Source: Actinomycetes bacterium
GTDB taxonomy: Bacteria > Actinomycetota > Acidimicrobiia > Acidimicrobiales > Palsa-688
Assembly: GCA_021838445.1 (NCBI GenBank)
Contig: JAKCDU010000004.1
Location: 1 to 64,000 of the forward strand
Length of the DNA: 64,000 nt
Reading direction: 5' to 3'
The notes beneath the pieces were generated by a model, which was not told where the DNA came from, did not search any database, and was given only the letters and a program-made list of their open reading frames with translations. Shown one piece after another: positions 37,873-61,764 of this stretch (positions are counted from its first letter, which is position 1; each line of letters starts with the position of its first letter). The translations under genes were made by a program, and so were the position numbers.

Positions 37873-38244
37873 TCAGGACACCGGGGTGGTGCGCTGGTCG
37901 ATCTGGCGGCGGATGTCGTCCATGTCGAGCTCTCGCACCTTGCCTACGAGCTCCTCGAGGGCCGGCGCAGGGAGGGCACCGGCCTGGGAGTAGAGCAGGA
38001 TGCCGTCCCGAAAGACCATCAGAGTGGGGATGGACATGATGCCGAGGGCACCGGCCAGCTCGAACTCCGCCTCGGTGTCCACCTTGGCGAACACGATGTC
38101 GTCGTGTCGTTCCGAAGCAGACTCGAAGACCGGGCCGAACATCCGGCACGGGCCGCACCAGCTCGCCCACAGGTCCACGAACACCATCTCGTTGGAGCTC
38201 ACGGTTTCCTCGAACGTCTCCTTGGTCAGCGCTACGGTCGCCAC
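37873..38244 (-). CDS. trxA: Thioredoxin
   Basis: A 123-residue thioredoxin with the standard active site LWASWCGPCRMFGPVFE (C30, C33), cis-Pro in MSIPTLMVFRDG and normal length. It reduces protein disulfides in the cytoplasm. GTG start with GGAG 8 nt upstream. It follows the cysteine desulfurase gene by 90 bp, in which a palindrome ATACCC-N4-GGGTAT overlaps a likely promoter, so it appears to be separately regulated within the sulfur cluster. Confidence 0.93.
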   Translation of the reverse strand: MATVALTKETFEETVSSNEMVFVDLWASWCGPCRMFGPVFESASERHDDIVFAKVDTEAEFELAGALGIMSIPTLMVFRDGILLYSQAGALPAPALEELVGKVRELDMDDIRRQIDQRTTPVS

Positions 38245-38334: not shown

Positions 38335-39723
38335 TCAGCCCCTGGCACAGGGGGCACCGACCTGGCGGCCCCGAGCCTCCCATCCCGGCACATCGCATTC
38401 CGGCCAGTAGTCACCGGTGTGGCGGTCCTGCCGGTAGGGAACCGGTCCAGGATGGCCTCCGACCAGGGCCCTCAGCGCGTCCAGCAGGCGTTCGATGTCG
38501 GCCTCCGAAGTGTTGATGCCGGCGCTGGCCCGCACCGCGCCGGGCATGAAGCGGCGGTCACCGGAGCCGACCGCCGAACGGTAGGCGGCCACCTGCGCAT
38601 GGTCCAGGCCCAGCAGCCGGACCAGGTAGGGGTGGGCGCAGAAGCAGCCGTGACGCACACCAATGGCGAACTCCGCGCTCAGACGGGCCGCCACCAGGGC
38701 GTGAGGAAGACCCTCCACGGTGAAAGTGGCCAGGGGAAGCACCGCGGCGGTGGACTCGGGGCCGAGCAGGCGGACCCCTTCGATATCGGCCAGACCCTCG
38801 CGCAGACGTGGGGCCAGGCGACGGTCGTGGTCAGCGATGGCCGCCCAGCCGATCCGGCCCAGCTCCTCGATGGCCGAGTGCATGGCCACCGCTCCCACCA
38901 CATTGGGGGACCCCGCCTCCTCCCGCTCGGGCGGTTCGGTCCAGGCCACCTCGTCGAGGTCCACCAGGTCGACGGCACCCCCACCGGCCAGGAAGGGGTC
39001 GCCGTCGGCGAAAGCCCGGCGCGGTCCCACCAACACACCGGCGCCGAACGGGGCGTACATCTTGTGCCCGCTCCAGGCCACGAAGTCGGCGGCGGTAGGA
39101 AGCGGGACATGGGCGGCCATCTGGGCTCCGTCGACCAACACCGGGACGCCCCGCTCGTGGGCCGCTTCGATGATCGACTCGACAGGTGGCAGCCAGCCCG
39201 ACACGTTGGATGCGCCGCTCAGCGCCAGGAGGCGAGGACGCTCGCCGTCGTCGAGGGCCTCAGCGACGGCGTCGACGCCGAAAGTCCCGTCCGGCTCGCA
39301 CTCCACGAAGCGCCGGCGGCATAAACGGGCCCACGGGAGCAGATTGGCGTGGTGCTCGATCACCGTGGTCACCACCACCTCGTCCCGGCGCAGTCGCAGG
39401 CGGTAGGCCAGATGGTTGATGGCCTCGGTGGTGTTGCGGCAGATGATCGCGGTATCAGGGCCGTCGGGATCGCGCCCGGCGAAGGTCAAGGCTGCCTCAC
39501 GCGCCGCCTCGTAAGCCTCCGTGGCCCGGCGCGACTTGTAACCGGCGCCTCGGTGGACGCTCGAGTACCACGGCAGGAACTCGTGTACCGATCGGGCTAC
39601 CGCCGGCAGGGCCGAAGTCGATGCGGCGGAGTCCAGACTCAGGTAGGGGCGCTCCCGGCCGTCCACGCACGGCACCGCCAGGTCGTCACCGACCAGCGCC
39701 CACGGGAGTCGAGGAGGGCTCAA
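38335..39723 (-). CDS. Class V aminotransferase / cysteine desulfurase-like protein
   Basis: A 462-residue PLP enzyme of the SufS/CsdA fold. PLP lysine K221 in AWSGHKMYAPFG, the pocket VDGAQMAAH, and RHGCFCAHPY (C360/C362) at the mobile active-site loop, where SufS has its sulfur-accepting Cys. It is longer than SufS (about 410) because of a C-terminal extension ending WEARGRQVGAPCARG. No suf or isc scaffold genes are adjacent; instead it overlaps a methyltransferase gene and sits in a persulfide/thioredoxin cluster, so sulfur mobilisation for another purpose is likely (inference). Confidence 0.88.
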   Translation of the reverse strand: MSPPRLPWALVGDDLAVPCVDGRERPYLSLDSAASTSALPAVARSVHEFLPWYSSVHRGAGYKSRRATEAYEAAREAALTFAGRDPDGPDTAIICRNTTEAINHLAYRLRLRRDEVVVTTVIEHHANLLPWARLCRRRFVECEPDGTFGVDAVAEALDDGERPRLLALSGASNVSGWLPPVESIIEAAHERGVPVLVDGAQMAAHVPLPTAADFVAWSGHKMYAPFGAGVLVGPRRAFADGDPFLAGGGAVDLVDLDEVAWTEPPEREEAGSPNVVGAVAMHSAIEELGRIGWAAIADHDRRLAPRLREGLADIEGVRLLGPESTAAVLPLATFTVEGLPHALVAARLSAEFAIGVRHGCFCAHPYLVRLLGLDHAQVAAYRSAVGSGDRRFMPGAVRASAGINTSEADIERLLDALRALVGGHPGPVPYRQDRHTGDYWPECDVPGWEARGRQVGAPCARG

Positions 39724-40316
39724 CGCCGTACGGCCCGAACCAGCGCGTCGAGGGCCCGCCGGCCACCCTCGGCGGTATCCACCATCCTTTCGACCAACTC
39801 CGCCTTCACGACCGAGAGGGATCCGAGATCGGCCGCCACGTCCTCGGCGCTGAACAGCATCTGAGGGTTCTGGGGGCCGCCGTAGCCCTCGGTCAGGTTG
39901 CGGGTGTCATGACCCACGACCAGCATGGTCCCGCCCGGCGCCACCGCTTCGGCCATCCGTCGGTAAATCCGTCGCCGCTCGTCGGCGGGCACCTGTAGGT
40001 AGAAGACGGCCACCAGATCGAAGGCCCCGGCCGGCGGCGACCAATCCCGTAGATCGGCCTCCACCCAGTTCACCTCGACACCTCGATCCGAGGCCAGCCG
40101 GGCCCCCTTGGCCAGGGCCACGGCCGAGAAGTCGACACCTGTCGCGTCCCAGCCCTGGGTGGCCAGCCACACCGCGTTGCGTCCCTCCCCGCAGGCCACA
40201 TCGAGGGACCGGCCCGGGCTCAGGTCGGCGACCTCGCTGACCAGGAACTGGTTGGGGTCGGCTTTCCACACCAGGGTCTCGCCGCGGTAGCGGTCATCCC
40301 AATCGTTTCGGTCCAT
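39720..40316 (-). CDS. SAM-dependent methyltransferase (TehB/thiol-methyltransferase-like)
   Basis: A 198-residue class I methyltransferase: WDDRYRGETLVWKADPNQFL at the start, SAM motif LDVACGEGRNAVWLATQGW, then GVDFSAVALAKG and LVAVFYLQVP. The opening (DRNDWDDRY) and size match TehB-like and small-molecule thiol methyltransferases. GGAAAGGATTCGAC precedes the ATG. It overlaps the cysteine desulfurase by 4 bp, suggesting methylation of a sulfur product or volatile thiol (inference). Confidence 0.88.
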   Translation of the reverse strand: MDRNDWDDRYRGETLVWKADPNQFLVSEVADLSPGRSLDVACGEGRNAVWLATQGWDATGVDFSAVALAKGARLASDRGVEVNWVEADLRDWSPPAGAFDLVAVFYLQVPADERRRIYRRMAEAVAPGGTMLVVGHDTRNLTEGYGGPQNPQMLFSAEDVAADLGSLSVVKAELVERMVDTAEGGRRALDALVRAVRR

Positions 40317-40437
40317 GTCGAATCCTTTCCTGGAGTGCTTCTGGGCGAGCCCACGGGGTCGTACCGGGGCGTCGGCTGGTGCGGGCGACGGCCAGACTCC
40401 CGCCGAGGGCAGATCGGGAGGGACGGCCAGTGCCAGG

Positions 40438-41829
40438 TCAGGCGGGCGCGGCCACGGGCAGACCGGCGGCCGCCCACGCGTCGTAGCCACCGAGAACGTC
40501 GGCCACCTGCTCGAACCCGTGGTGGCGGATCAACGACGCGGCCACCGAGGACCGCTGGCCTGAGGCGCAGACGACCACGACGGGCCGGCCGGGGTCGAGC
40601 GAGCCCAAGCGGTCCCGCAGCAGTGGGAGCGGGAGGAGCATCGATCCGGGTATGACCCCGAGCCGGTGCTCGCCGGGATTGCGGACGTCGACCACCTGGA
40701 CATCGGGGTCATCGCCGGCCCACCCGGCGAGATCGGTGACCGGTATGCGACGGGCGACGGCCGCCTCGTGGGGATGCTCCACGAGGACGGCCAGGATGTC
40801 GGGGAGATGGCCGACCGTGCGGTCGAACCCGATGCGGGCCAGCCGGGTCCGCGCCTCGCCCTCGCGCCCGGGAGGGCTGACGACCACGATGTCGCGGTCG
40901 GGCGCCACCACGTCGCCGGCGTACTCGGCGAAGCGGCCTTCGAGGCTCACGTTGATGGCCCCCCGCAGGTGACCGGACGCAAAGGTCTCGGGGGCCCGGG
41001 CGTCGATCACCACCGCGCCGTCCCGTCGCATCTGGGCCACGTCTTGCATCGTCAGGGCCACGGTCGGGCCGTCGTGGTCGAGGAGCTGATGGCTCCTGCG
41101 GTTGGTCGACGCCGCGAAGCCGAAGTAGGAGGGCGCCGTCGGCTGGTACCGGCTGATATCAGCGACGAAGGCATCCTCGCTCATGGGGGCCAGGGCGTAG
41201 TTGGTGGTCCTCTGCTCGCCGATGGTCGAGCTGGGAGCAGAGGCCATGGCCCGCCCGCACGCCGAGCCGGCGCCGTGGGCCGGGAACACCCGGGTGGCCT
41301 CGGGCAGGGTGAGCAACTGCTCGTGGAGCGAGCGGTACAGGCTACGGGCGAGCGCGTCGGGGCTGACCCCGGCCGCGGCCAGGAGGTCGGGACGTCCGAC
41401 GTCACCGATGAAAAGGGTGTCGCCGGTGAGAACACCCCAGGGCTCGGCGTCGCTCTGGCGTTCCCACACCACCACCGAGATGGACTCAGGGGTGTGACCG
41501 GGTGTGGCCCTGATCTCCAGGACGACCTCGCCCAGGCTGATGCGCTGACCGTGGCTGAGATTCTCCAAGGGGAAGTCCGCCTCGGCACCCGGTCCGTAGG
41601 AGATCACCGCCCCGGTGGCCTCGGACAGCTCCAGATGGCCCGACACGAAGTCGGCGTGGAAGTGGGTCTCGATGATCCGCTCGATGGTGTAGCCGTGGAG
41701 TCGGGCATCGTCGAGGTACAACCCCACGTCACGCTGGGGATCGACCACGACCGCCCGCCCGGTGGTGGGATCGGCAACCATGTAGCTGTACAGCGACAGG
41801 CATCCCAACTCGAACTGTTTGAAGTACAA
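40438..41829 (-). CDS. MBL-fold hydrolase fused to two rhodanese domains (persulfide dioxygenase-like)
   Basis: A 463-residue protein. The metallo-beta-lactamase domain (about 1-240) has ETHFHADFVSGHLEL (metal His/Asp), TPGHTPESI, LTGDTLFIGDVGRPDL and FPAHGAG, as in persulfide dioxygenase-like enzymes. Two rhodanese domains follow. The first (about 265-355) has VVVSPPGREG where the catalytic Cys should be, so it is probably inactive; the second (about 365-460) has VVVCASGQRSSVAA with the Cys. It likely oxidises or transfers persulfide sulfur. TTG start with AAGGA 7 nt upstream. It follows the ArsR gene by 16 bp. Confidence 0.9.
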   Translation of the reverse strand: MYFKQFELGCLSLYSYMVADPTTGRAVVVDPQRDVGLYLDDARLHGYTIERIIETHFHADFVSGHLELSEATGAVISYGPGAEADFPLENLSHGQRISLGEVVLEIRATPGHTPESISVVVWERQSDAEPWGVLTGDTLFIGDVGRPDLLAAAGVSPDALARSLYRSLHEQLLTLPEATRVFPAHGAGSACGRAMASAPSSTIGEQRTTNYALAPMSEDAFVADISRYQPTAPSYFGFAASTNRRSHQLLDHDGPTVALTMQDVAQMRRDGAVVIDARAPETFASGHLRGAINVSLEGRFAEYAGDVVAPDRDIVVVSPPGREGEARTRLARIGFDRTVGHLPDILAVLVEHPHEAAVARRIPVTDLAGWAGDDPDVQVVDVRNPGEHRLGVIPGSMLLPLPLLRDRLGSLDPGRPVVVVCASGQRSSVAASLIRHHGFEQVADVLGGYDAWAAAGLPVAAPA

Positions 41830-41845: not shown

Positions 41846-42202
41846 TCAGCCGGCCCGCAGCGCTCGACGCCGGTCCAGATCGTCGGTCATGACGGCCCGC
41901 AGCACGTCTATGGCGTCCACCACCCGGGTGTCCCTCAGCGTGTAGATGACCCGGTTGGCCTCCCGCTCGGCGTCGACCAGGCCCCGGTCACGGAGCACGC
42001 CCAGATGCTGGGAGACGTTCGAATGGGACACGTCGATCAGCTCGGCCAGCTCCCCGACCGCTCGGGACTTCTCGGCCAGGGCGTAGAGGATCATCAGTCG
42101 CTTGGGATCGGAAAGGGCGCGGCAGACCCCGGCGGTCAGCTCCTCGAGCTCCGAGCGGAGGCGGCCGTCGAAGCGCCGGGCGGTCTCTTGTTCCTCGATC
42201 AT
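41846..42202 (-). CDS. ArsR-family repressor of the persulfide cluster
   Basis: A 118-residue winged-helix repressor: VCRALSDPKRLMILYALAEK, VGELAELIDVSHSNVSQHLG, VLRDRGLVDAEREANRVIYT. The sequence resembles BigR/SqrR-type sulfide/persulfide sensors in context, but only one cysteine (in TAGVCRAL) is present rather than the usual redox pair, so sensing may differ. The start ATG is 7 nt after TATAGT (42210-42215), fitting a leaderless message, and the -10 overlaps the palindrome 42212-42233, which argues for autoregulation. Confidence 0.9.
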   Translation of the reverse strand: MIEEQETARRFDGRLRSELEELTAGVCRALSDPKRLMILYALAEKSRAVGELAELIDVSHSNVSQHLGVLRDRGLVDAEREANRVIYTLRDTRVVDAIDVLRAVMTDDLDRRRALRAG

Positions 42203-42209
42203 TGGTACG

Positions 42210-42233
42210 ACTATATGCGTATCCCCGCATATA
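42210..42233. promoter_or_regulatory. 22-bp palindrome between arsR and trx2 with arsR -10 box
   Basis: TATATGCG-TATCCC-CGCATATA (42212-42233), perfect 8-bp arms, lies between the divergent genes. On the minus strand TATAGT (42210-42215) overlaps its left arm and is the -10 box of arsR. The size and AT-rich arms suit an ArsR-family dimer operator. It can control both directions. Confidence 0.75.
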
Positions 42234-42293: not shown

Positions 42294-42767
42294 GTGACCC
42301 GTCCCGGTCCAACCACGTCCCCCAACCCCGCCTCGATCGTCAGCTGCCCTGCGTGCGGGGTCAAGAACCGGGTGCCGGCCCACGCCACCGGCGTGCCCCG
42401 CTGCGCCAAGTGCCGGGGCGGCCTCCCGTGGTTGGTCGAAGCCGGGGCCTCGGACTTCGACCGGGTGACCGAATCCCGGGTGCCGGTGCTGGTCGATCTC
42501 TGGGCACCGTGGTGCGGACCGTGCCGGATGGTGGCACCCGGCGTCCAGCGGGCGGCGCAGGAGATGGCCGGCCGGTTGAAGGTCGTGAAAGTGAACGTAG
42601 ACCGGGCACCGGGCGTATCGGCCCGCTTCGGAGTCCAGGGGATACCCACCCTGCTCCTGCTCGACCACGGGCGGGTGGTGGCTCGCCAGGTCGGCGCGCT
42701 GGCCGAGCCTCAGCTGCTCGACTGGGTGAGCCGCTCCCTGGCTTCGATACCCGCCGCCACTGGGTAA
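42294..42767 (+). CDS. trxC: Thioredoxin 2 with N-terminal zinc ribbon
   Basis: A 157-residue thioredoxin 2. Zinc ribbon cysteines C18, C21 (SCPACGVKN) and C37, C40 (RCAKCRGG), then the thioredoxin domain with APWCGPCRMV (C74, C77) and GVQGIPTLLLL. GTG start with AAGGAG 7 nt before it. It is divergent from the ArsR/MBL-rhodanese operon and probably under the same repressor, so it may reduce persulfidated proteins (inference). Its 3' end overlaps the convergent membrane-protein gene by 58 bp. Confidence 0.92.
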   Translation: MTRPGPTTSPNPASIVSCPACGVKNRVPAHATGVPRCAKCRGGLPWLVEAGASDFDRVTESRVPVLVDLWAPWCGPCRMVAPGVQRAAQEMAGRLKVVKVNVDRAPGVSARFGVQGIPTLLLLDHGRVVARQVGALAEPQLLDWVSRSLASIPAATG

Positions 42768-60420: not shown

Positions 60421-61764
60421 GTGGCCGACCAGACCCGAAGCGACATCGCCCTGCTCTACCGACGGGCCGGGTTCGGAATCCGCCCCGATGAGCTCGACGC
60501 CCTAACCGGGGCGGGCTACAACGCCGCCGTGGACGGCCTGCTCGCCGGCCTCGGGTCGGCGCCCGACCCCGGCGGTGACTCGGTCACCGTGCCGGTCTTC
60601 CACATCTACCAGCGACCCCCCAAGAACTTCACCCAGGCTCAGCGCAAAGCTGCCGATGCCGTGTACGCCACCGAGCTGAGGGACCTCCAAGACTGGTGGC
60701 TGAACCGGATGATCAAGACCTCAACGCCCCTACGGGAGAAGCTCACGCTCTTCTGGCACGGCCATTTCGCCACCGGGGTGGTGAAGGTTCGCGACGCCAA
60801 ACTGATGTACCTGCAGAACCAGCTTCTCAGAACTACCGGCGCAGGGCCCTTCGACCAACTCGTCCAGGCCGTGGCCAAGGACGGGGCCATGATGGTCTGG
60901 CTGGACACCGCCACCGATGTGAAGGACCACCCCAACGAGAACTTCGCCCGGGAGATGATGGAGTTGTTCACTCTCGGCGTGAACAACTACACCCAGGACG
61001 ACGTCGTCGCCGGCGCCCGGGCCTTCACCGGCTGGCGCTACGACCGGCTGGCCTACGAGTACCGGTTCGTGCCCCGACTGCACGACTACGGGTCCAAGAC
61101 CTATCTGGGCCAGACCGGCGACTGGAACGGCGAGGACGCGGTGAACATCGCGGTACGCAACCCGGTCTCCCCCCGGTTCGTGATGGCCAAGCTGTGGAGC
61201 CATTTCGCCTACCCGGTCACCCCCGCCGAGCCGGTGATCACTGACCTGGTGGCGGCCTACGGTCCGTCGATGAACCTGACCTCGGCGCTCGAGGCCATGT
61301 TCAAGCACGACGCCTTCAGGACCGCCACGACCCGCACCAATCTGGTCAAACAGCCCATCGAGTATCTGGCCGGGGCGGCCCGGGCCCTCGGCCTCGACGC
61401 CACCGCTGACCGGACCGGCTCGTCCCCGAGCCATGGCTCGGGGAGACCGCTGGCGGTCATCGCCACCGCCCTCGGTCAGACTCCTTTCAATCCACCCAAT
61501 GTCGGGGGCTGGGGACAGAACGCCTACTGGCTCGACACCTCGACAGCCCTCGTACGCCAAGAAGCGGCCCTCTTCCTGGCCATGAGAGCGGACCTGACCA
61601 GTATCGGGTCCATCCCGCCGTCACAGAGACCGGCGGCGGTGGCCCGGATGCTGTCGATAGACGGATTCGGGCCAACCACCATGACCGCCCTGGCTGCGGC
61701 CCAGACCAATCCGGTCCAACTGATGGCCCTGGCCCTGGCCAGCCCCGAGTACGTACTGGCATGA
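60421..61764 (+). CDS. DUF1800 family protein
   Basis: About 447 residues of DUF1800: YRRAGFGIRPDELDALTGAG, LQDWWLNRMIKTSTPLREKL, FWHGHFATGVVKVRDAKLMY, REMMELFTLGVNNYTQDDVV and PPNVGGWGQNAYWLDTSTAL. These proteins almost always pair with a DUF1501 protein and are thought to act in the envelope, often in planctomycetes and actinobacteria; the activity is unknown. No signal peptide is visible with the GTG at 60421, so the true start may be further upstream. The DUF1501 gene follows after 34 bp. Confidence 0.85.
   Translation: MADQTRSDIALLYRRAGFGIRPDELDALTGAGYNAAVDGLLAGLGSAPDPGGDSVTVPVFHIYQRPPKNFTQAQRKAADAVYATELRDLQDWWLNRMIKTSTPLREKLTLFWHGHFATGVVKVRDAKLMYLQNQLLRTTGAGPFDQLVQAVAKDGAMMVWLDTATDVKDHPNENFAREMMELFTLGVNNYTQDDVVAGARAFTGWRYDRLAYEYRFVPRLHDYGSKTYLGQTGDWNGEDAVNIAVRNPVSPRFVMAKLWSHFAYPVTPAEPVITDLVAAYGPSMNLTSALEAMFKHDAFRTATTRTNLVKQPIEYLAGAARALGLDATADRTGSSPSHGSGRPLAVIATALGQTPFNPPNVGGWGQNAYWLDTSTALVRQEAALFLAMRADLTSIGSIPPSQRPAAVARMLSIDGFGPTTMTALAAAQTNPVQLMALALASPEYVLA

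Follow-up and report, generated by a model that had tools for sequence, protein, structure and literature searches.

The intergenic stretch between an arsR gene and a divergent thioredoxin gene, trx2, in the 64,000-nucleotide stretch of DNA analysed here (the window) holds a palindromic operator, and the adjoining ArsR protein carries a single cysteine. We conclude that this protein is probably an autoregulated repressor of sulfane-sulfur genes and belongs to a one-cysteine ArsR class distinct from the two-cysteine sensors. The best explanation as a whole, to which we give a probability of about 0.58, is a group of ArsR-autorepressed sulfane-sulfur genes governed by a sulfur switch at Cys27. 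The operator, the conservation of its paired arms, the invariant cysteine and the sulfur-gene neighbourhood are each computational observations.

The operator, which we regard as confirmed, is the 22-bp palindrome TATATGCG-N6-CGCATATA at positions 42212-42233. It is exact, with 8/8 arm pairs, as the sequence-only reading had claimed. The arsR ATG (42202) is 9 bp away on one side and the trx2 GTG (42294) 60 bp away on the other. The start given in that reading, 42210, extends the palindrome by two bases, the outer ones of a -10-like box of arsR, TATAGT (42210-42215, minus strand). This box, which the reading placed over the operator, is recognisable at 42215-42210 by eye only, since a sigma-70 consensus promoter scan gave no match. 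A leaderless arsR, also proposed, fits the window's genus only: by eye, arsR in the window and in the near-identical locus L007 has no Shine-Dalgarno-like stretch and an ATG 7 bases past the box, whereas Shine-Dalgarno-like leaders precede arsR in the related genomes G664 and G091. A palindromic operator at the regulator's own promoter is an ArsR/SmtB trait, and binding to it is predicted here.

Inverted repeats of 8 bp are not generally rare, numbering 68 in the 64 kb at spacers of 0-12; when the 91 bp between the two genes were shuffled base by base, one arose in 236 of 20,000 cases and, at a spacer of 6 only, in 21 of 20,000. By chance, the exact pattern, with at most 3 mismatches allowed, is expected 0.01 times per window, and when the whole genome (3.99 Mb in 117 contigs) was searched for the 22-bp pattern at this tolerance, this site alone was found. 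Chance is ruled out as the origin of the palindrome, more through conservation than through its own rarity. A regulon elsewhere in the genome was rejected: the 18-bp core TATKCG-N6-CGMATA, with at most 1 mismatch, occurs at two other places, a near-site on contig C2 and another on C18. This count does not exceed that of the reversed-pattern control, and inspection by eye recognised no sulfur gene at either place. Within the window, the inverted repeat AGTTGTTCAC-N7-GTGAACAACT at 60962-60988 was dismissed as a further site because it lies within coding sequence, in an ORF that is of DUF1800 type by eye.

Conservation of the palindrome upstream of orthologues, the check suggested by the sequence-only reading, was found in close and more distant relatives. 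L007, on a 4218-bp contig, carries TATATGCG-AAGATA-CGCATATA. In G664 (identity over aligned parts 83.5% for ArsR, 68% for the metallo-beta-lactamase (MBL)-rhodanese and 66% for trx2), the arsR-MBL-rhodanese order is kept, a DUF302-trx2 pair is divergent, and the operator reads TATATTCG-TAGATA-CGAATATA, both arms having changed jointly and symmetrically relative to the window. G091, with 69% ArsR identity and a TauE exporter after the MBL-rhodanese gene, has TATATTCG-CAACTG-CGAATGTA. The consensus TATKCG-N6-CGMATA was built from these three copies and that of the window, and was applied to 35 held-out upstream regions (41 minus six near-copies). At a spacer of 6, 11/35 scored at least 10 of 12 letters and 24/35 had no such site, compared with 0-2 regions at each of twelve control spacers (0-5 and 7-12); with dinucleotide shuffles as the background, 8/35 reached p<=0.05 (binomial 2.7e-4; combined p 5.5e-4). 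Over whole loci, sites scoring at least 11 occurred at 0.023 per kb versus 0.005 in control stretches, the counts being 10, of which three fall in training loci, and 1. A site precedes tusA, dsrE2 or a rhodanese-MBL gene in 8 of the 20 loci listed (L045, L049, L051, L052, L063, L124, L125 and L129), and none stands clearly before these genes in the remaining 12. L129 has three sites, including a perfect CATATGCG-N6-CGCATATG between arsR and the rhodanese-MBL gene. The SqrR site, ATTC-N8-GAAT in the available text of PMC9774250, is matched exactly in G664 and G091, and the window half-site has ATGC instead of ATTC.

Profile models (Pfam and NCBIfam) identified the genes on both sides of the operator. 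The arsR gene (41846-42202, minus strand) encodes a 118-aa winged-helix protein placed in the ArsR/SmtB family by HTH_5 (6.5e-16; 58.4 bits against a cut-off of 22), with HTH_metalloreg also over its cut-off. Downstream on the same strand lie genes for an MBL protein with two rhodanese stretches (40438-41829; Lactamase_B, Rhodanese), a TPMT/TehB-like SAM methyltransferase (39720-40322; Methyltransf_25, TPMT, TehB; alternative GTG start upstream at 40490), a SufS/cysteine-desulfurase-like PLP enzyme (38335-39723; Aminotran_5 1.1e-74, SufS subfamily below cut-off) and, last in the presumed operon, a TrxA-like thioredoxin (37873-38244; Thioredoxin 2e-23, TIGR01068 over cut-off). Spacing along the series is 16 bp after arsR, 115 bp after the MBL gene and 90 bp before the trxA-like gene, and the methyltransferase and PLP-enzyme genes overlap by 4 bp; these distances make a single operon from arsR to the trxA-like gene plausible. 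The MBL-double rhodanese is presumably of the persulfide dioxygenase/sulfurtransferase type. By eye, a catalytic Cys seems absent from its first rhodanese domain (VVVSPPGREGE) and is present in its second (CASGQRS). On the plus strand, trx2 (42294-42767; Thioredoxin 1.3e-24) encodes a TrxC-like thioredoxin with N-terminal CxxC pairs, its product passing TIGR01068 and falling below the TrxC model cut-off. The profiles thus agree with the earlier description of a palindrome that faces trx2 and has an MBL-double rhodanese among its targets. In Escherichia coli, trxC (TrxC/Trx2) is under OxyR; the window trx2 is of the TrxC kind but faces an ArsR operator.

Given the family name, the match to the general HTH_metalloreg model and the TehB-like methyltransferase in the operon, the protein could be a classical ArsR/SmtB sensor of a metal or metalloid. 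With one Cys and an alpha5 helix devoid of His, however, none of the known alpha3, alpha4 or alpha5 metal sites can form (motifs in part from the available text of PMC10509353). In addition, the CmtR, BigR and TsoR models score far under cut-off and no metal transporter was found among the eight neighbourhood proteins scanned, and we hold metal sensing to be highly improbable.

The association with sulfur genes extends across relatives, and we regard the sulfur regulon as well supported. At least one of DsrE2, LbpA, HdrBC, TusA, LplA, DsrC, DUF302 or MBL-rhodanese was found in 26/43 homologue loci (443 kb) versus 1/20 control stretches (198 kb) taken from contig starts in 20 of the homologues' genomes. 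Some queries came from L008, L052, L055, L064 and L073 and so match themselves; without these five, the count is 21/38. The loci were collected by ArsR similarity alone, except L112, which was retrieved via its MBL-rhodanese. A Pfam check of example loci confirmed DsrE2, GCV_H (LbpA-like), LplA, TusA, glutaredoxin, CCG/Fe-S, TauE, DUF302 and DsrC. Rhodaneses, sulfurtransferases and sulfur transporters nearby are also a trait of the two-cysteine sensors, and the link to TusA/DsrE/sHdr sulfur-oxidation loci is wider than the sequence-only reading saw. Arrangement of arsR ahead of a window-type operon was seen in four close genomes only (window, L007, G664 and G091), and MBL-rhodanese relatives at ~46-57% identity have no adjacent arsR. 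At the DsrE2/LbpA locus L125, two same-strand arsR homologues lie ~1 kb apart. The window's own genome has, on contig C53 (L134:1026-2454), a DUF302-DsrE2-DsrC cluster with an adjoining flavoprotein-like gene, where no operator match was found; because the genome holds no second operator elsewhere, these putative sulfur genes are not obviously in the regulon.

The same operator and regulon could instead serve a Cys27 that responds to stress from peroxide, hypochlorite or disulfides, for instance by forming a mixed disulfide with a small thiol; trx2 and trxA would then be the main output. Such an arrangement would resemble RexT, a thiol-based ArsR protein described in the accessible sections of PMC8960804 as an H2O2 sensor over a thioredoxin gene, and it would fit the two thioredoxins of the presumed regulon. 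Redoxin genes also accompany relatives beyond the sulfur loci, with a glutaredoxin in six (L065, L067-L071) and a thioredoxin in three (L127, L128 and L130); eight loci (L050, L053, L054, L057, L060, L061, L072 and L126) have none of the sought sulfur or redoxin genes. Against this, 26/43 relatives sit with sulfur genes, and the adjacent pair Cys40-Cys41 of RexT (same source) is missing from the window ArsR. We consider a thiol-stress role rather unlikely.

The sensing residue is probably Cys27, the sole cysteine of the window ArsR. As noted from the sequence alone, the regulator lacks the pair of known persulfide sensors. Its one cysteine lies away from the SqrR/BigR positions. Cysteine occupies the Cys27 position in 44/45 homologues, L072 having Phe, and is the only one in 24 of the 44 Cys27-bearing rows as cut for alignment, which begin ~30 residues ahead of it. 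In an AlphaFold2 monomer model (five-row alignment; pLDDT 80, 58-66 across the first 30 residues), Cys27 falls near the end of the first helix (alpha1, 2-30), and alpha5 spans 92-117; Foldseek matched the model to SmtB, CzrA, YgaV, BigR and HlyU. The SqrR-type alpha2 Cys column is Tyr40 here, there is no cysteine after Cys27, and the BigR equivalog model reaches 56.9 bits against a cut-off of 155. Distant matches L010 and L011 have Met at the Cys27 position and cysteines like those of SqrR; in the PDB, L010 matches SqrR, BigR and HlyU, and its two cysteines align with those of HlyU/SqrR in the five alignments shown. Ten relatives, including the two Chloroflexota rows, carry an extra alpha5 cysteine (DACDI or similar) and form one branch (96/89), the column being Ile, Val, Leu or Phe in 34 others. 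An ancestral alpha5 Cys lost in the window clade was not upheld: the tree indicates one change only, with the root unsure.

Invariance of Cys27 could also reflect packing of alpha1, in which case the residue would be structural and the repressor would either have no sensing function of its own or respond to a different ligand, a situation that may apply to Rv0081-type ArsR proteins. Among PDB sequence matches Rv0081 ranks second (1.8e-12), and the available text of PMC10509353 allows that inducer sites may be missing in some ArsR regulators. Yet Phe takes the place of Cys27 in the Rv0081-like L072 and in paralogues L003-L005, so the cysteine is unnecessary for the fold, and its conservation tracks sulfur context; we judge a structural role unlikely.

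Sulfur sensing by one cysteine, the reading we prefer, is likely but unproved. The window ArsR shares with the group of SqrR, BigR, SoxR, sHdrR, HlyU and YgaV the ArsR fold and nearby rhodanese/MBL and sulfur-transfer genes, and in G664 the operator is of the ATTC-N8-GAAT type; the protein departs from that group in having Tyr40 at the alpha2 Cys place, no C-terminal alpha5 Cys and a lone Cys27 in alpha1. Known persulfide sensors all fall in SSN cluster 4 and have paired cysteines, one in alpha2 and one in alpha5 (PMC10509353, available text). Lacking the pair and sharing their context and a similar operator, the window protein plausibly works like the two-cysteine sensors without being one of them. 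SoxR Cys116Ser, left with one cysteine, retains a weak polysulfide response, and SqrR minus one cysteine gives none (PMC10451225, in part). OhrR offers a precedent for switching a repressor through one cysteine, acting by S-bacillithiolation of its lone Cys15 (PMC4360819, in part); unlike the window ArsR, OhrR belongs to the MarR family and responds to peroxide/hypochlorite stress. In our literature searches, no description of a one-cysteine sulfur-sensing ArsR was recognised.

We propose that an ArsR dimer would bind the one 22-bp palindrome, which lies between its own and the trx2 promoter, and shut both. When sulfane sulfur rises, Cys27 would become persulfidated or form a bridge with either the partner subunit or a small thiol; the modified dimer would leave the DNA and both transcripts would go up. 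The operon products may serve as tools for oxidising, passing on or stripping sulfane sulfur, and the thioredoxins could afterwards reset Cys27. Repression, inducer, cysteine chemistry and reset are all put forward here as a predicted scheme.

More tentatively, and with somewhat less than even confidence, we suggest a broad ArsR class spanning the window's phylum and Chloroflexota that senses sulfane sulfur through one invariant alpha1 Cys and, from a TATKCG-N6-CGMATA operator, governs the TusA/DsrE/sHdr-LbpA route of sulfur oxidation, persulfide removal by MBL-rhodanese proteins, and thioredoxins. If it exists, such a class would give the ArsR family a second cysteine solution and would be the other mode of action suspected for pair-less shdr-linked ArsR proteins. 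Many regulators near shdr genes lack the two conserved cysteines, and ArsR-type regulators that act in other ways may take part in shdr expression (PMC12423496, available portion). The window clade is a candidate for this mode; with a single residue and a single operator belonging to a defined protein, it would allow a direct test of the pair-less gap. Searches that require a cysteine pair will miss sulfur regulators. Among the relatives next to glutaredoxin (L065, L067-L071), the ArsR proteins have alpha1 and alpha5 cysteines and also adjoin a gene that is GroES-like by eye, and in several of these loci TGCGCA-NN-TGCGCA lies over the promoter.
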